Part shown: piece after piece, positions 7,601 through 37,670 of the stretch
How the letters are laid out: every line of letters begins with the position of its first letter
Numbering within the stretch: the first letter of the stretch is position 1
Origin: Actinomadura sp. KC06
Lineage (GTDB): Bacteria; Actinomycetota; Actinomycetes; Streptosporangiales; Streptosporangiaceae
Direction: 5' to 3'
Length of the DNA: 64,000 nucleotides
NCBI RefSeq assembly: GCF_004348735.1
Contig: NZ_SMKT01000014.1
Coordinates: forward strand, 17,199-81,198
Notes under the pieces: generated by a model
Databases searched by the model: none
Seen by the model: only the letters and a program-made list of their open reading frames with translations
What the model was told of the DNA's origin: nothing
Position numbers and translations under genes: made by a program

Positions 7601-9221
7601 TCGGGATCGCAGGGTTCACCGGCGTCACATGGCGGGATGCGGCCGTGCAGGCGCGGCATGGCGAGGCCGCGCTGTGGAAGGCCGCGCAGGCGGTGACCAG
7701 CCAGCTGGCTGGTCGGATCGGCGAGCGTGCCGCGGTGGCGTGGGTCCACACTGCCGCCGTCGTCGACCACGCTGGCCGCTATGGGCTCATCTCGGCCGAG
7801 AACCTCGACGATTCTGCTGCGATCCGGAAACAGGCTGAGCAGCTCGCCTCGTGCAACCCGGCGCTCGCCGGCTTCGCTGACCCTGCTGCGAACCCGATGT
7901 GGGACGCCGACCCTGGCGACGCGGCGGCCGACATCGCGGCCCTGTACGCCGAGCACACGACCGTGGACCTGCCGGGCGTCCCGGACGGGTACCGCATCGG
8001 TGACCTCTACCAGCAGCTCAGCGAAGAGGCGCGTAAGGGACGCGCGCTGTGCCAGACCCCGCCATGGGTCACCGACCTGCTCCTGTCCCTGTCCCTCGAC
8101 CATGCCGCCGACGAAGCCGGATGGGATGGACTGCGCTCGCTGAAGGTCATCGACCCGGCGTGCGGGACCGGGCACGTCCTAGTCGAGACTTTCCTGCGGC
8201 TGGAAGCGTGGCAGTGGCTGCACCCAGGGGCACCCCGCGTGCGCGGTGCCCTAGTGCCGGACGTGCTGGCGCAGGTCCACGGATGCGACCTGGACCCGTA
8301 CGCGGCGCTGATCGCCCGGTACCGGCTGTGCGCCTTGGCCGCCGCGATGAGCGGCACCGACCTTGCCGGGCTACCCGCGGATCTGCCGGTGCAGGTGGCC
8401 ACCGCAGATTCCCTGCTCGCCGACGATGAGCCATTGCTGGCGCGCGGTGCCTACGACGTGGTGGTGATGAACCCGCCCTACATCACCCCGAAGGACGCCC
8501 TGGCCCGGGACGCGGTCCGCGCCCGGTACCCGGACGTGTGCCACCGAAAGTACGCACTCTCACTGCCGTTCCACGCGCTGGCCAATGACCTGCTCAAGCC
8601 GGGAGGCTGGTGCGCGCAGCTCACCGCGAACAGCTTCATGAAACGAGAGTTCGGCAAGCCGTACGTCGAGAAGTACCTGTCAGGGCTGGACCTGCATTGG
8701 GTGATCGACACCTCCGGCGCCTACTCCCTGGCCACGGCACCCCCACCGTCATCCTCGTCAACCGCAACCAGCCCCCAACCGCGCCCATGGTGTCGACCGT
8801 GCGAGGCGCCCAAGGCGAACCCTCGGTTTCGGAACTCCCGGGCCGCGGCATTGTGTGGACACAGCTCCGCCACGCCGTCCGCGAACGCGACCAAGCCGCC
8901 CGCCTCGACGCGCTCCTGGACCGCAGCGACAGCCAGGAGCTGCACGCCGCGTCCGAGGAACCACCCCCGGTGCCGGTACCTGATGGAGACCGGCCGTCAG
9001 CGCAGGGCGCGCCCACTCCGAAGCGGAGACGTGCGGCACCGTCCGCAGTTGGCCAGCTCGATCTGCTCATCGAGGTGGCGGAAGAGGGAGCGGGCACGCA
9101 GCAGGCCCGGGTGGCGCAACGGCGACGGAGCCGCCTTAAAGGCGGCATCTCTGCGGGTTCGAATCCCGCCCCGGGCACCTGGCGGCAGGCCAAGCAGGCG
9201 AGCGACCGGGGGCCGAAATGA
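7597..9221 (+). pseudogene. N6-adenine DNA methyltransferase, frameshifted
   Basis: Motif I (DPACGTG, about residue 186) and motif IV (NPPY, about 292) define a class I amino-methyltransferase that methylates adenine N6 in DNA. The starting frame is good up to DTSGAYS. There one base is missing within 8725-8730, and the conserved continuation GHGTPTVILVNRN appears in the next frame, which stays open to TGA 9221. With the base restored the protein would have about 541 residues. Unshifted, the ORF ends at 9231 with an unrelated Arg/Ser/Pro-rich tail. No slippery heptamer is present. The 3' end overlaps a tRNA gene. Likely role if intact: protection from host restriction. Confidence 0.8.
9105..9177 (+). 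tRNA. tRNA with anticodon UAA (reads UUA, Leu)
   Basis: The acceptor stem is 9105-9111 with 9170-9176 (7 perfect pairs) and the discriminator is A9177. The anticodon stem is 9130-9134/9142-9146 (5 pairs) around loop CTTAAAG, anticodon TAA at 9137-9139. The T arm is 9153-9169 with loop TTCGAAT. CCA is not encoded. The D stem is weak (about 2 pairs) and the variable region is only 6 bases, whereas leucine tRNAs normally have a long variable arm, so charging identity is uncertain. UUA is the rarest leucine codon in high-GC actinobacteria. It overlaps the end of the methyltransferase gene. Confidence 0.75.
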
Positions 9222-21493: not shown

Positions 21494-21567
21494 AGTGGAG
21501 TGGAGCAGTTCGGTAGCTCGCTGGGGTCATAATCCAGAGGTCGGCGGTTCGAATCCGTCCTCCGCCA
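21494..21567 (+). tRNA. tRNA-Met (CAT)
   Basis: The acceptor strands are 21494-21500 and 21560-21566, with an A-C mismatch at the first pair and one G-T. The D stem is GAGC/GCTC, the anticodon stem 21521-21525/21533-21537, anticodon CAT at 21528-21530, variable loop 5 bases, T arm 21543-21559 with loop TTCGAAT. CCA is not encoded. It lacks the three G-C pairs of initiator tRNA in the anticodon stem (it has GGG opposite TCC), so an elongator Met, or Ile if C34 is modified to lysidine. Confidence 0.8.
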
Positions 21568-21716
21568 CGGTCCAGGTTGGCGTGAGCCGTACCGCGCTCA
21601 GGTTCCGTGACGGACGTGGCCCGAAGCTGAGCGGCAACGGCGTGGTCGAGGGACCGGTCTCCGACGCGGCCGTCACGGCCAAGGGGACCGGGACTCTCGG
21701 GCAGTTGGCAGGGCGA

Positions 21717-30622: not shown

Positions 30623-31003
30623 TCACTCCAGATCGGGGCCCGAGGTGAGGTGGTCGATCACGACCTCCGCGTGAGCCTGCAGGCGGAGGATGGCGTAGTC
30701 CGCGCATTCCAGCCGCCACACGGCGGGGTGGGATTGGTCCAGGGTTCCGAACGTCAGGGCGGTGAGCCAGTCCAGGATCATCCAGACGAGCAGGACCTTG
30801 GTCTCCTCCGCGAGGGGGAGGTCCAGGATCATGTCGTGGGACCGGACGATCGCTGCGGCGGCGTCCGCCCCCGTCCACTCCTCATCGATCTTCGCGGGAA
30901 GCGAGATCGGGATGGGAAGCATTCCCAGGACCTTGACCATCGCCAGGTAGCCGAGGATGACTTTCTCCCCGATTTCCCGCTGGCGGTCTTCGTGGTCGTC
31001 CAC
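30623..31003 (-). CDS. Helical protein, paralogue of 32720-33085
   Basis: The protein has 126 residues from GTG 31003, 6 bases after AGGAG. It shares the layout MLPIPI-x-(L/V)PA...WT...DLP-x2-E...DW with the protein at 32720-33085, about one third identical by eye, and all-helical character. It is expressed from one of three near-identical leader elements. No function recognised. Confidence 0.65.
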   Translation of the reverse strand: MDDHEDRQREIGEKVILGYLAMVKVLGMLPIPISLPAKIDEEWTGADAAAAIVRSHDMILDLPLAEETKVLLVWMILDWLTALTFGTLDQSHPAVWRLECADYAILRLQAHAEVVIDHLTSGPDLE

Positions 31004-31025
31004 CACGAACTCCTCTCTTGAGTTA

Positions 31026-31100
31026 TCAATCTGCGAGTGCCGGTCCGGGGGTCTCACTCCCTGTCCCGACATCACTAACTATACCATAGTTTTGTACCGA
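31026..31100 (-). promoter_or_regulatory. Conserved promoter-leader element, copy 1
   Basis: On the minus strand: CGGTAC, then ACTATGGTATAGT (TATAGT at 31083-31078 as -10), then a ~55-base leader with GGGAGTGAGACCCCCGGACC and CACTCGCAGATTGA. GAGTG and CACTC in the leader can pair. TTGCCA lies 19 bases before the -10. It is nearly identical to the elements at 32473-32556 and 32621-32715 although the genes behind them differ. Confidence 0.8.
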
Positions 31101-31126
31101 GTTGGCAAGGGGAATGCAGGAGTCTC

Positions 31127-31546
31127 TCACGCATTCTTCGGGGGCCGCCCGCCGCCGACGCCCCGGCCCGGCCGCGCGCGTAGCTGCTCGTCCAAGTCAC
31201 CGCGCCGCAGATGCACCACGCCGCACACCTCAACGAACCCCGTCAGGCGGCCCACATGGCGTTCCTTGGTCACCGTGGTGTGCGCCACCCCGCGCAGGTC
31301 GGCGATGTCCCGCTCGTCCAGCAGATCGTCGGCGTCCCCCGGCGCGGGCAGCGCGGGCAAAGCCCGCCCGTCCCGGTACGCCTCGACCTGGTCCCGGTCG
31401 TAGAGCAGCTTGCGCCGCCCGGGATTCAACGGCGCCGGGAACCCGTCCTCGTGCGCGACACCGGCGTTCCGGAACGTCTGGTACGCCAGCCCGAGCAACT
31501 GCGCCGCACCCGCGGCGTCCACCGCCGTCCGGCCCGCCGGGATCAC
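31127..31546 (-). CDS. DNA-binding protein with excisionase-like HTH segments
   Basis: The protein has 139 residues from GTG 31546, overlapping the upstream stop (GTGA). Two helix-turn-helix-like segments are visible (AAQLLGLAYQTFRNAGV ... KLLYDRDQVEAY; and DERDIADLRGVAHTTVTKE ... VVHLRRGDLDEQL), each followed by a strand and helix as in excisionase-type domains. The C-terminus is basic. Confidence 0.55.
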   Translation of the reverse strand: MIPAGRTAVDAAGAAQLLGLAYQTFRNAGVAHEDGFPAPLNPGRRKLLYDRDQVEAYRDGRALPALPAPGDADDLLDERDIADLRGVAHTTVTKERHVGRLTGFVEVCGVVHLRRGDLDEQLRARPGRGVGGGRPPKNA

Positions 31547-31809
31547 GGCATCTCCCCGGCGGCGCGGAAGACAGCGGCCACGCTCTCGTACGGGCGGCTG
31601 GTGTCCGGCGCGTACGTCAGGCACGCGGCCGGCCCCTGGTCGTCGCGGACCTCGAACCAGTACCGGATGTGACTGGTGCCTTCCCCGTTCGCCGCAGCCT
31701 GCTCGTGCCTGCGGCGGCATGCGTCGTCGAGCTGGTCGAGCGCGTCATCGATGCCGGACGCGTCGCCGATCATCACGGGCGGCTTGTTGGTCTGCCAGAT
31801 CTCGAACAT
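31543..31809 (-). CDS. Small hypothetical protein
   Basis: The protein has 88 residues from ATG 31809, with AGGAGG 5 bases upstream. Acidic, mixed alpha/beta (SHIRYWFEVRDDQGPAACL). Coupled to the HTH gene by GTGA. Confidence 0.65.
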   Translation of the reverse strand: MFEIWQTNKPPVMIGDASGIDDALDQLDDACRRRHEQAAANGEGTSHIRYWFEVRDDQGPAACLTYAPDTSRPYESVAAVFRAAGEMP

Positions 31810-31940
31810 GTTGGCCTCCTTCGCTGCCGGGCTGCTTCTCACTGTGCTAGGTGCGGTGGGTCGTGCGGGTGTCTGTGCGGATGTGTGGAAAACCGTTGGG
31901 CCCGGGAGCGGGGCGGGCGTTTGGCCCGCCCCGCCGTCCG

Positions 31941-32461
31941 TCAGAGGCGACCTTCCTGGAACAGCCGTTCGGTGATCCGGGACTCGGCGATGGGCTCGAA
32001 GCTGTCCACCGGTGCGAGCTGCCAGAGTTCGCGGCCGAGGTCGTACACCGACCGCCAGATCCGGCATTGCTCCTGCAGGGCCGCCCGGTCGTCACAAACG
32101 GTCGTGAGCCGCCCGACCTTGACGACGACCTGGCCGCAGCCGCTGGGGCTCTGGCGAGGTGACTTGCCAGGACCACCGGGGTCGGCTGGGCCCACCTGAA
32201 CCTGACCGCCGAGTAGATCGTCGGTGTGCCCTGCCGGTACAGGCGGGCCGTCTTGGGGGTGGTCATCACCCGGTTCCCGATGATCCGGGCCTCGACCCAC
32301 GCCTTGAACAGGTCGCGTGCGGCCCACTTGTCCGCGACGGTGATGACCACGCCCGGCATCAGGATCTGGATGAACGTCTGGACGATCTCGACGACACCCT
32401 CGTACGGTCCCGCGTGCCGGACCGTAAGGGACGCCTCGTGCTCGGCCGTGTAGTTCCCCAC
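31941..32461 (-). pseudogene. Hypothetical protein split by frameshift
   Basis: GTG 32461 (GGAGGAAC upstream) begins MGNYTAEHEASLTVRHAGPY and continues sensibly to FRWAQPTPVV. Near 32130-32155 one base is missing: the protein-like continuation VVVKVGRLTTVCDDRAALQ to ERLFQEGRL is in another frame, ending at 31941. Unshifted, the frame ends at 31847 with a Ser/Arg-rich tail. Restored length about 173 residues. It sits behind leader copy 2. Confidence 0.6.
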
Positions 32462-32472
32462 GGTTCCTCCAC

Positions 32473-32556
32473 TGTTGATTTGTCAATCTGCGAGTGCCGG
32501 GGTCCGGGGTCTCACTCCCTCGTCCTGACACTTATAACTATACCATGTTTCTGTAC
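32473..32556 (-). promoter_or_regulatory. Conserved promoter-leader element, copy 2
   Basis: The minus-strand -10 TATAGT lies at 32542-32537, preceded by GTACAGAAACATGG at the same distance as in the other copies. The leader repeats GAGGGAGTGAGACC and CACTCGCAGATTGACAAATC. It diverges from copy 3 with about 64 bases between them. Confidence 0.8.
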
Positions 32557-32620
32557 TGACTCAAGACCTTCTGCGACAGGAATCTTTAGCCGGTTTTCTA
32601 TGCCGCCCTACTTGCCATCA

Positions 32621-32715
32621 CGGTACAGAACTGTGGTATAGTTAGTGATGTCGGGACAGGGAGTGAGACCCCCGGACCGGCGCTCGCAGATTGACAAATC
32701 AACAGTGGAAGGAAG
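32621..32715 (+). promoter_or_regulatory. Conserved promoter-leader element, copy 3
   Basis: CGGTACAGAACTGTGG is followed by TATAGT at 32637-32642. TTGCCA lies 19 bases upstream of the -10, as in copy 1. The leader carries GGGAGTGAGACCCCCGGACC; here CACTC is CGCTC, which still pairs with GAGTG through a G-U pair. GGAAGGAAG then serves as ribosome-binding site for ATG 32720. Confidence 0.8.
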
Positions 32716-32719
32716 ACCG

Positions 32720-33085
32720 ATGGAGGACCACAACCGGGCCATCGAGGCCGCGAAGCTCCGTCTCCTCGCCACCTACGGGCTGGTGATCAAGGCGCTGCAG
32801 ATGCTGCCCATCCCCATCGAGGTTCCCGCCGTCCTGGACAGCATGTGGACGGCCGAGATCCACGAGAGCCTCACCCGCACCTACGACCTCCTGAACGACC
32901 TCCCCATGCAGGAGCCGCTCAGGGCCCAGGTCAAGGTGATGGTGATCGACTGGATCTCCGCCGCCGACTACCTGTTCGACGCGCAGGAGGAATTCGCGGA
33001 CTGGAAGACCGACTTCGCGCTCATCCAAGCCGAACGAATCACCGCCAGCTGGCACCTCGTGAAGGCGATGCACGACCGGAAGTGA
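32720..33085 (+). CDS. Helical protein, paralogue of 30623-31003
   Basis: The protein has 121 residues, all-helical. MLPIPIEVPAVLDSMWT and DLPMQEPLRAQVKVMVIDW align with the paralogue. Its start is set by GGAAGGAAG. Function unknown; the shared leader suggests the two proteins are made under the same control. Confidence 0.7.
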   Translation: MEDHNRAIEAAKLRLLATYGLVIKALQMLPIPIEVPAVLDSMWTAEIHESLTRTYDLLNDLPMQEPLRAQVKVMVIDWISAADYLFDAQEEFADWKTDFALIQAERITASWHLVKAMHDRK

Positions 33086-34494: not shown

Positions 34495-35940
34495 GTGGCT
34501 GTCGACCTCGCATGGGAGTACGCCGCCCGCCAGTTCGACCCGCCCCCGGTCAGCCCGTACCTGGGGAACCCGGTCGGCTGGATGACCGAGAGGCTCGGCG
34601 CGCACCTGTGGTCGAAGCAGCGCGAGATCGCCGAGTCCGTAGTGGCGAACAAACGCACGGCGGTGAAGTCGTGCCACAACGCCGGCAAGTCGTGGATCGC
34701 GGCGCAGATCGCGGGCTACTGGATCGACGTCCACCCGCCCGGCGAAGCTTTCATCGTCTCCACCGCCCCCTCGTATCCGCAGGTGCACGCGATCCTCTGG
34801 GAAGAGATCCGCAAGACGGCCAAGAACCCGCAGGGTGATCCCCTACCGGGCCGAGTCCTGCAGAGCGACGAGTGGAAGCTCGACGACGGCACCCTCGTCG
34901 GATGGGGCCGCAAACCCGCAGACACCGACCAGCACGGCTTCCAGGGCATCCACCGCAAGTACGTCCTGGTCATCCTCGACGAGGCGTGCGGCATCCCCGA
35001 GCAGCTCTGGACCGCGGTCGAGGCGATCACGACCACCGACACGTGCCGGATCCTGGCGATCGGGAACCCCGACGACCCCAACACCGAGTTCGGGAACGTC
35101 TGCAAACCCGGCTCCGGCTGGAAAGTCATCCGCATCTCCGGGCTCGACACCCCGAACTTCACCGGCGAGGAAGTCCCCGACGCCGTCCGCGAGCTGATGC
35201 TGTCCCCCGAGTGGGTGGAGGACAAGCGGCGCCGCTGGGGTGAGAACTCCCCCCGCTTCATCTCCAAGTGCCTTGGCGACTTCCCCGAGATCGGCAACGA
35301 CACCCTGATCTCGCCGCGCTGGATCGAGGCCGCGCAGGCCCGCGCGTTGGAACCCGGCCCGTGGTCGGTGCTCGGCGTGGACGTGGCCCGGTTCGGCTCC
35401 GACGAAACGATCCTCGCGCTGGCCCGCGGCCCGGTGGTCAGGATCGTCGGGGAGCACGCCAAGCTCCGCACGACCGAGACCACCGGCCACGTGATCGTCG
35501 CCAAGGGCGAGCACGGCGTCGACGAGATCCGCGTGGACGGTGTCGGCGTCGGATCCGGCGTCGTCGACCAGCTCCTCGAAGCCGGCCACGACGTGGTGGA
35601 CATGCAGTCAGGCGCCGCCGCGCTCGACTCCGAGCACTACGCCAACGCCCGCGCCGAGTGGTGGTGGGGCCTGCGGCAGCGGTTCGAGGACGGCGACATC
35701 GACATCGACCCCGACGATGACGAGCTCGCCGCGCAGCTCGGCACGGTGAAGTACAAGTACACCGCCCGCGGCCAGGTGCTGATCGAGTCCAAGGACGACA
35801 TGAAGAAGCGCGGCGTCCCGTCTCCGGACCGGGCGGACGCGGTGATGCTCGCCAAGGCCCACGTGTTGCCGCCGGAGGAGCTAGTCGAGGACGAGGACCT
35901 GGACGACGAGATCGGCGGCTACTCGATCAGCGACTACTAG
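34495..35940 (+). CDS. Terminase large subunit
   Basis: The protein has 481 residues from GTG 34495. Walker A-like SCHNAGKS (59-66) and Walker B VLVILDEA (157-164) make up the ATPase motor; the C-terminal nuclease has VLGVDVARFGSD with the first catalytic Asp and later VDGVGVGSGVVD and SPDRADAVMLA. The enzyme cuts concatemers and pumps DNA through the portal. Length is normal and the ORF is intact. The portal gene follows after 14 bases. Confidence 0.95.
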   Translation: MAVDLAWEYAARQFDPPPVSPYLGNPVGWMTERLGAHLWSKQREIAESVVANKRTAVKSCHNAGKSWIAAQIAGYWIDVHPPGEAFIVSTAPSYPQVHAILWEEIRKTAKNPQGDPLPGRVLQSDEWKLDDGTLVGWGRKPADTDQHGFQGIHRKYVLVILDEACGIPEQLWTAVEAITTTDTCRILAIGNPDDPNTEFGNVCKPGSGWKVIRISGLDTPNFTGEEVPDAVRELMLSPEWVEDKRRRWGENSPRFISKCLGDFPEIGNDTLISPRWIEAAQARALEPGPWSVLGVDVARFGSDETILALARGPVVRIVGEHAKLRTTETTGHVIVAKGEHGVDEIRVDGVGVGSGVVDQLLEAGHDVVDMQSGAAALDSEHYANARAEWWWGLRQRFEDGDIDIDPDDDELAAQLGTVKYKYTARGQVLIESKDDMKKRGVPSPDRADAVMLAKAHVLPPEELVEDEDLDDEIGGYSISDY

Positions 35941-35954
35941 CGCGGGAGGTGGCC

Positions 35955-37670
35955 GTGACCGTCCTCGATCGCCTCCAGGAAAGCGTCCAGGGGCTCTACG
36001 ACCGGGCCACCGGCCGGTCCGCGCGGCTGTGGCTGGCCGAGTCGGCGCGGGCCGAGCGGGAAATGCGGCTCCACCTCGAAGAGACGATCTCGGACCTCGA
36101 AAACCGGATGAACGAGCCGGGCTGGCAGCGGCTCACAGCCCTGGCGGACCAGGAGTTCAGCCGCGAGGGGCTGCGGCAGATCACGGCCGTCTGCCGGATC
36201 ATGGCGATCAAGAACAGCCTGATCAAACGGGGACTGTCGCTGCGCGCGAGCTACATCTGGGGGCAGGGCGTCCAGACGTCCGCCCGCGCCCAGGGCAAAC
36301 GGCCGGGGGAGCAGGACGTCAACGCCGTCGTCCAGCGGTGGCTCGACGACCCGTCGAACCGGCGGACGTTCACCGGCCTCGGTGCGTGCGAGGACCTGGA
36401 GCGGGCGCTCGGGAGCGATGGAAACCTGTTCTTCGCGCTGTTCACCCGCCCGAAGACCGGCCGCGTGCAGGTGCGGACGCTGCCGTGGGACGAGATCACC
36501 GACGTCATCAGCAACCCGCAGGACAGGTCCGAGCCGTGGTTCTACCGGCGGGAATGGTACGAGGAGGAGCAGACCGGCTCCGGGGTCGTCGACCGGCGCC
36601 GCATCGCCTATTACCCGGCGCTCGGGTACCGGCCCCGCCTCCGTCCCCGCAAGCTGTCGTTCCCGGGGCACGGCGACGGCGGCCTGGTCGAGGTGCTATG
36701 GGACGCGCCCGTCCTCCACGTCGCGGTCAACAGCCCGCTGCACTGGAAATGGGGCATCCCCGACTCCTACGCCGCCGTGGACTGGGCACGCGCCTACACC
36801 GAGTTCCTCACGGACTGGGCGCGGCTGATCAAGGCCCTGTCGCGTTTCGCGTGGAAGCTCACCACGCCCGGCCGTAAGCAAGCGCAGGCCCGCGCCCGCA
36901 TCGGCGCCACACCCTCCCACGATCGGCTCTCGGGCGAACCGAACACCGCCGGCGCGACGGCGCTACTGCCGCCGGACATGGCACTGGAATCCGTCCCCAA
37001 GTCCGGCGCGACGATCGACAGCGAGTCCGGCCGCCCGCTCGCGGCGATGATCGCGGCCGCCCTGGACCTGCCGGTCACGATGCTGCTCGGCGACCCCGGC
37101 GTCACCGGGAACCGAGCCACCGCCCAAACCCTTGACCAGCCGACCGAGCTGGCCATGCAGATGCGCCGCGAACTGTGGACCGACGTCCGCCGCACCATCC
37201 TCGACTACGTCATCGACCAGGCCGTGAAGGCACCCATGGGCCCCCTGCGCGGCACGATCACCCTGGACGAGGACGGCCGCGAGGTCATCGAGCTGGACGG
37301 CGACACCGACCGCACCGTCGACATCACCTGGCCCGACCTCGACGACATCGATCCGCTACAGGTGATCCAGGCGATCACCACTGCGGACGGAACCACCTAC
37401 ATCCCGCCGCTGGTCGTGGTCCGGCTACTGCTGGAGGCCCTCGGCCTGAAGAACGTCGACGAGATCCTCGACCAGGTCACCGACGACAACGGCGAGTTCC
37501 TCTCGCCCAGCGGCGCGCTCGGCGCGGCCGGGCAGGCAGCGATCGACGCGTTCAACCGCGGTGAGGACCCCGCCGCCGCAGTCGGCGGCCGTGACCGCGG
37601 CGAACCCACCAGCGCCGACGACGACCCCGAGGACGAGAACGCACGCCGACCCGAGCCCGCGAACGCCTGA
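35955..37670 (+). CDS. Portal protein
   Basis: The protein has 571 residues. Position after the terminase, length and the helical C-terminal half with PLAAMIAAALDLPVTMLLGD fit the SPP1/HK97-type actinophage portals that form the dodecameric DNA channel. GTG 35955 is chosen because GGGAGG at 35944-35949 overlaps the earlier GTG 35949. The acidic C-terminus is disordered. Confidence 0.9.
   Translation: MTVLDRLQESVQGLYDRATGRSARLWLAESARAEREMRLHLEETISDLENRMNEPGWQRLTALADQEFSREGLRQITAVCRIMAIKNSLIKRGLSLRASYIWGQGVQTSARAQGKRPGEQDVNAVVQRWLDDPSNRRTFTGLGACEDLERALGSDGNLFFALFTRPKTGRVQVRTLPWDEITDVISNPQDRSEPWFYRREWYEEEQTGSGVVDRRRIAYYPALGYRPRLRPRKLSFPGHGDGGLVEVLWDAPVLHVAVNSPLHWKWGIPDSYAAVDWARAYTEFLTDWARLIKALSRFAWKLTTPGRKQAQARARIGATPSHDRLSGEPNTAGATALLPPDMALESVPKSGATIDSESGRPLAAMIAAALDLPVTMLLGDPGVTGNRATAQTLDQPTELAMQMRRELWTDVRRTILDYVIDQAVKAPMGPLRGTITLDEDGREVIELDGDTDRTVDITWPDLDDIDPLQVIQAITTADGTTYIPPLVVVRLLLEALGLKNVDEILDQVTDDNGEFLSPSGALGAAGQAAIDAFNRGEDPAAAVGGRDRGEPTSADDDPEDENARRPEPANA

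Follow-up and report, generated by a model that had tools for sequence, protein, structure and literature searches.

The 64,000-nucleotide stretch of Actinomadura DNA analysed here (the window) holds, judging from its genes, an actinomycete prophage region, in which terminase, portal, head, capsid, tail, and endolysin-like genes span positions 34495 to 59804. Two tRNA genes (9105 to 9179 and 21494 to 21568), a tRNA-Leu (TAA; ARAGORN only) and a tRNA-Met, lie in or beside the prophage. The first-pass annotation had proposed three near-identical promoter-leader elements in this region, and all three are present at the positions and on the strands that it assigned: A and B on the minus strand and C on the plus strand, with TATAGTTA and a Shine-Dalgarno-like sequence common to all. 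A DNA search of the host's own genome (9.38 Mb) recovers these three elements and no fourth, in agreement with the covariance model described below, and GGGAGTGAGACCCC has three exact matches in the window (no mismatch), each inside one of the elements.

Copy C consists of a putative -10 box, TATAGT, at 32637 to 32642 (plus strand), preceded at a 19-nt spacing by a weak -35-like TTGCCA seen by eye; a two-tier hairpin at 32649 to 32682 (outer arms UGUCGG/CCGGCG, inner arms GGG/CCC, loop AGUGAGA), delimited by its MFE fold and by pair counts across 43 distinct alignment rows; and a boxA-like part, TTGACAAATCAACAG, at 32691 to 32705, which matches host rRNA-leader sequence at 13 of 15 positions. 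In copy B (minus strand), the -10 box TATAGT at 32542 to 32537 is accompanied by a -35-like TTGAGT at 32564 to 32559, the hairpin region UGUCAG...CCGGCA occupies 32495 to 32530 with one A-C mismatch in its outer stem, and the boxA-like TTGACAAATCAACAG lies at 32472 to 32486. Copy A (minus strand) has its -10 box TATAGT at 31083 to 31078, a two-tier hairpin UGUCGG...CCGGCA at 31038 to 31071 (again from folding and pair counts), and the boxA-like TTGATAACTCAAGAG at 31015 to 31029. From the -10 box to the start codon, the leaders measure 74 to 77 nt, and GGGAGTGAGACCCC ends 44 to 47 nt before the start codon in all three.

The arrangement makes three transcription units plausible on sequence grounds, with A and B directed leftward and C rightward: B and C are divergent, 94 bp separate their -10 boxes, and A lies downstream of the B unit. 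The C gene (32720 to 33085, plus strand) encodes a 121-aa protein of PHROG 33636, a family of unknown function, and is followed rightward by the terminase (34495 to 35940), the portal (35949 to 37670), and then further virion genes; unit C continues into terminase, portal, and capsid genes both in the window and in the nearest relative, G276, a genome of the same genus whose leaders are the same as those of Actinomadura sp. WMMA1423. The A gene (30623 to 31003, minus strand; 126 aa) belongs to the same family as the C gene. Behind leader B, the first gene is an open frame at 31847 to 32461 (minus strand) that leaves the frame of its relatives part-way, the remaining homology lying in another frame (ORF 31941 to 32531), possibly through a frameshift or a sequencing error. 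The B unit continues on the same strand with a second gene at 31543 to 31812 (89 aa, no family above the cut-off) and a third at 31127 to 31570 (147 aa), which is helix-turn-helix-like and has a weak match to the PHROG 66 excisionase/regulator family (E = 2e-5). For A and C, the earlier claim of far higher identity in the leaders than in the genes behind them is correct, since these copies are 87% identical from the -10 box to the start but only 31% identical in their proteins.

That the three elements belong to a wider RNA family with a conserved anatomy is well supported. Members run from the -10 box through TGTCGG (or a near variant), a short internal loop, GG(GG)-loop-CC(CC), a second short internal loop, CCGRCR (or a near variant), and a linker to TTGANAANTCAA, the Shine-Dalgarno sequence, and the start codon; as RNA, a typical leader is a hairpin of UGUCGG/CCGRCR around GGG(G)/CCC(C), followed by a boxA-like 15-mer resembling TTGANAACTCAACAG. 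A search of 341 genomes of the host's family for TATAGTT and TTGANAANTCAA at a spacing of 25 to 55 nt gave 15 matches, spread over 7 of the genomes, and the reversed pattern gave none. Every one of the 14 copies in alignment A2 has TATAGT, as the collecting pattern itself demanded. A covariance model (R1) trained on 14 of the 15 pattern-found copies recovered further ones, including one from a different family (G445), with a protein identical to one labelled Nocardia cyriacigeorgica. The resulting alignment has 55 matches in 43 distinct rows, the 14 training copies among them. Some rows are incomplete: L312 and L316, of Nocardia type, have a single-tier hairpin, the second match in L382 has a degenerate boxA, and several have no clear -10 box.

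An independent test used the leader-linked proteins only (A5), with no leader sequence, and placed them at 36 sites in 20 of 337 genomes. Six of these sites had no locus from which the upstream sequence could be read; among the remaining 30, a regular expression detected the boxA-like motif within 140 nt upstream of 27. Seventeen of the 30 genes come from 13 genomes in which the leader pattern had found nothing, and the leader model has matches before 16 of them (E = 2e-10 to 0.018). The exception, L388, has no recognizable boxA and still shows TGTCGA/TCGACA arms. L320 to L323 are putative family members. In Nocardia, the protein search picked out 7 places, spread over 6 of the 148 genomes covered, two with a leader (one being G445, already known); L319, a clear family gene, has the hairpin and no boxA, and four weak matches show neither. 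A protein-found viral contig, L316, has both hairpin and boxA, its leader being the same as that of the Nocardia locus L318. The leader is thus linked to one family of small proteins, PHROG 33636, with which it usually travels. Series of two to four leader-plus-gene cassettes occur in G014 (L384/L399), G182 (L380/L395), and G276 (L328/L337), with diverged proteins and, in G014, with cassettes in both orientations; together they look like a diversifying cassette system.

Within these loci, the leader type follows the prophage locus and not the gene in the cases compared. The two tandem cassettes of G140 have leaders that are 99% identical and proteins that are 40% identical; protein A is closest to a G291 protein (43%, versus 31% to protein C), whereas leader A is closer to leader C (87%) than to the G291 leader (74%). 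When loops are compared by eye, locus by locus, on the 43-row alignment, AGUGAGA is common to all five copies of G000 and the main locus of G276, a GUCAGAAG-like loop to all four copies of G014, GUCGAAA to both of G153, UUGGC to both of G115, and GUCGGAA to the three of G182. Separate loci within one genome can have different loops (G140, G276, and G186). Such locus-wise sharing would fit a prophage-specific reader of the hairpin, and would fit local gene conversion equally well.

Over the 43 distinct rows, 93.5% of cells are paired, and five of the eight pairs are altered on both sides (11 cells); none of 500 shuffles reaches the observed value on any of five covariation measures. Versions of the structure slid along the alignment pair at 34 to 49%, apart from 83% at -3, where there are few cells. 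We regard the support for pairing as good but not conclusive, because the alignment was fitted to the structure and its rows are related; smaller row sets give weaker covariation figures. Free folding produces the two-tier hairpin in 12 of 14 copies. Folded singly, copies A, B, and C are of modest stability (z = -1.2 to -1.4), and the MFE of copy B alone prefers a different fold, which contains the GAGTG/CACTC stem highlighted by the first-pass annotation. That stem does pair at 5 of 5 positions in all three window copies, with one G-U in C, but it is not the one that is conserved: of the 14 copies in A2, the two from the nearest relative keep only 3 and 4 of the 5 pairs, and the remaining nine lack the 5′ arm altogether. 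Collecting copies for covariance analysis, as had been suggested, revealed conserved pairing in a different hairpin.

One could instead read the conserved leader as coding sequence, the beginning of a leaderless open frame joined to the gene, given that in A and C an open frame from an ATG or GTG in the leader runs in-frame into the gene. We consider this mostly refuted and give it next to no credence: in 8 of 17 correctly placed copies, the leader contains an in-frame stop, 24 to 54 nt ahead of the start codon (an 18th, L316, was excluded from this count because its start is mis-set by one base), and leader length is not constant modulo 3 across copies. The hairpin and the boxA-like part also sit behind quite different promoter sequences. 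Because the pairing is kept, the leader frame is not conserved, and the promoters differ, a shared leader acting as RNA is supported, which upholds half of the earlier suggestion of a shared regulator or RNA switch. The switch half found no backing in Rfam: at the gathering threshold, the whole window yields one tRNA only, at E up to 10 it yields two chance-level matches, neither on the elements, and no covariance model of a known family (riboswitch, C4, isrK, and others) matches them. The isrK sRNA of enterobacterial prophages (L004, L044, and L061) shares the 14-mer GGGAGTGAGACCCC; the isrK model has no match here, and the presence of GGGAGTGAGACCCC in isrK is probably a coincidence.

The first-pass annotation made no mention of what we consider the most telling feature: CACTCGCAGATTGA continues into sequence that is common to the rRNA-operon leaders of the host. 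In the own genome, TTGANAACTCAACAG has four matches, three of them 219 to 225 nt before 16S and one at the end of a contig, where the flanking sequence is the same. The window copies are not among these four, each having 2 mismatches to the rRNA 15-mer (1 to 3 in relatives); in the 26 rows of A4, 12 to 14 of 15 positions are identical to the boxA region of the host's own rrn leaders. In nine genomes chosen for carrying the leader, TTGANAACTCNANAG has 55 matches, of which 35 are rRNA leaders, 19 are leaders of the present kind, and one precedes a tmRNA, with no match for the reversed control in any of the nine. A 16S start lies 111 to 225 nt downstream in the same locus for 26 of the rRNA leaders, and the other 9, at contig ends, were assigned by near-identical flanks. 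In G302 (L351/L369), the one genome concerned, the 15-mer stands directly before a tmRNA detected by ARAGORN. Within the host boxA region, the resemblance is confined to the 3′ half; the U-rich 5′ half has no counterpart in the prophage leaders: upstream of TTGAGAAC, rRNA leaders mostly read CGTTTC (TGTTCT in Nocardia) and prophage leaders GCAGA, GCAGG, or similar. In mycobacteria, according to the part of the source available to us, the corresponding rRNA leader motif is a highly conserved, putative BoxA antitermination element (PMC10218544).

This distribution bears on the idea that the leader is a 5′ untranslated region promoting mRNA stability or translation, its hairpin protecting against decay, its A-rich stretch and Shine-Dalgarno sequence aiding initiation, and its likeness to boxA being incidental. 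A hairpin predicted directly at the 5′ end and a Shine-Dalgarno-like sequence 3 to 8 nt from the start would suit such a role, but in the nine genomes, the 15-mer pattern otherwise occurs only in rRNA leaders and before one tmRNA, and reversed controls give nothing; we therefore think this explanation improbable.

Detailed knowledge of phage antitermination comes from lambdoid phages, in which the lambda-type nut site combines boxA and boxB and works through the N protein and Nus factors. Our preferred reading, which we hold tentatively and somewhat short of an even chance, is that the leader is an rRNA-type, nut-like antitermination leader with a prophage-specific hairpin, recruiting host Nus factors against termination. 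Starting from the observed anatomy, conservation, pairing, rRNA likeness, and gene link, we infer the steps as follows. Each element would be a promoter followed by the common leader, with RNA starting about 6 to 7 nt after TATAGT, a position that would put the hairpin at the 5′ end of the RNA. The boxA-like part would bind NusB-S10, a candidate prophage factor would read the loop-variable hairpin in the manner of boxB in the lambda nut site, and RNA polymerase would thereby resist termination across the downstream units. Pointing toward antitermination, as far as sequence can, are the box that appears common to rRNA and tmRNA leaders, its occurrence in tRNA-rich loci elsewhere, and the entry of unit C into virion genes with no rightward consensus promoter found between 33000 and 63000. 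The silence of that promoter scan is weak evidence, because the same scan detects copy B and misses A and C. Terminator-like sites are in no excess over shuffles.

Other features count against antitermination, among them the missing 5′ half of boxA, the modest stability of the single-copy folds, and the relatives in which no boxA is recognizable (L388 and L319). Short genes that each have a leader of their own make up many of the cassettes (A here, four in G014, and three in G182), so that long-range antitermination seems unneeded. Moreover, the distance from the end of the TTGANAANTC core to the start codon is 15 to 19 nt in 17 of 18 copies, L316 being the 18th, a spacing that fits a translational role. 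The last two observations favour the main rival, translational control as at E. coli suhB, in which Nus factors or free S10 bound to a boxA beside the Shine-Dalgarno sequence would repress translation, possibly until a prophage protein on the hairpin lifts the block. At suhB, the accessible part of the published account describes boxA-mediated translational control whose effect is repression (PMC5725501). The two cases are alike, to the extent of that account, in a boxA adjoining the Shine-Dalgarno sequence of a non-rRNA mRNA leader, and they differ in that suhB is a repressed host gene with no phage hairpin. We judge this explanation unlikely: the box precedes rRNA genes and one tmRNA gene, where translation is not at stake, a similar box stands among tRNA genes in other actinophage contigs, and in phage Izzy it lies more than 200 nt before the next annotated gene.

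A further possibility is that promoter and operator form the conserved unit, under a prophage repressor or activator, and that recombination of units keeps the leader conserved. In its favour, the G000 and G276 copies have a block of conservation around GTACAGAA...TGGTATAGTT, upstream of the -10 box, and two Nocardia copies have inverted repeats at their promoters, seen by eye. Promoters nevertheless vary (TAGTGT, CATAAT, and the Nocardia inverted repeats) while the hairpin and boxA-like part stay, and the pairing is maintained via paired changes, for which reasons we regard an operator as quite improbable.

Searches of viral contigs extend the comparison to other actinophages. TTGAGAACTCAACAGTG occurs in 71 viral-contig stretches, versus 8 for its reversed letters, and 55 of the 71 are in GC-rich loci; only these 55 enter the promoter and tRNA figures. 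A promoter-like pair is present within 120 nt upstream of 15 of the 55, versus 2.9% of random positions, and a same-strand tRNA is near the box in 5 of the 55, four of these being tRNA-bearing loci with tRNAs flanking the box on both sides. Among the other 16 stretches, one has a promoter-like pair (control rate, 21.7%) and none has a tRNA. The loci with the box between tRNAs, L073, L285, L282, and L255, contain 25, 29, 9, and 4 tRNAs, respectively, and L073 also has a tmRNA match. Two actinophage-like contigs with an rRNA-type box, L281 and L256, contain series of Hammerhead II ribozymes about 0.5 to 0.9 kb apart, with two Pistol ribozymes also present in L281. In addition, 24 Streptomyces phage records have a weak match (E = 0.3) near one genome end; the two inspected, Izzy and phiScoe23, are Likavirus phages. 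These share with the other actinophage contigs an rrn-type 15-mer in a leader, which in Izzy stands behind a sigma-70-like promoter with no annotated start within 200 nt, but their upstream sequence differs from that of the prophage leaders, and no link to the present gene family was seen. From the viral-contig and Streptomyces phage matches, the rRNA-type box seems to be in wider use among actinophages, and the present hairpin would seem to be one version among these uses.

Set beside known systems, the prophage leader resembles the rrn leaders of Actinobacteria in having a promoter and then a 15-mer of the TTGANAACTCAACAG class, which three to four of the host's own rrn leaders carry; the 15-mer follows the -10 box by 48 nt in copy C and by about 64 nt in the rrn leader L074 (by eye). 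It differs from them in preceding small protein genes with a Shine-Dalgarno sequence, in having no U-rich 5′ half of boxA, and in its two-tier hairpin, which is not evident in rrn leaders (compared unfolded). With the lambda nut site it has in common a boxA and a small variable-loop hairpin at the start of temperate-phage units; here, however, the hairpin is two-tiered, the host is an actinomycete, no N-like protein is recognized, and the order is the reverse of boxA then boxB, the hairpin preceding boxA in every row with a recognizable boxA. The likeness drawn by the first-pass annotation to the start-associated sequences of mycobacteriophages is a loose one. Those of cluster K are, in the part of the paper available to us, 13-bp repeats typically located 3 to 7 bp before start codons, with linked inverted repeats for which there is little support for a hairpin (PMC3203893). 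The shared features are a conserved repeat just before the starts of small phage genes and a GGGN7CCC-like outline, but size, position, and sequence differ: the cluster K repeats occupy the ribosome-binding-site position, boxA is not mentioned in that part of the paper, and the window elements do not fit the definition of a 13-bp GGGATAGGAGCCC typically 3 to 7 bp before the start, GGGAGTGAGACCCC ending well upstream. Titles and abstract openings of the open-access papers retrieved yielded no report of a boxA or nut-like leader in actinobacterial phages or prophages.

Extending the antitermination reading, we can picture a home-grown nut system, possible although doubtful, in which a portable leader joins a prophage-specific hairpin to the host rRNA boxA. 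Cassettes would move from genome to genome, with each leader remaining matched to its own prophage, and one prophage factor acting with the host rRNA antitermination machinery would activate all units of that prophage at once. If the reading is true, the leader would define a compact RNA family by which jointly controlled prophage units could be recognized, and would offer a natural setting in which to study boxA outside rRNA in Actinobacteria as well as a way into the small-protein family PHROG 33636. It would also make testable the question of whether the Nus machinery serves or silences phage genes in high-GC hosts.
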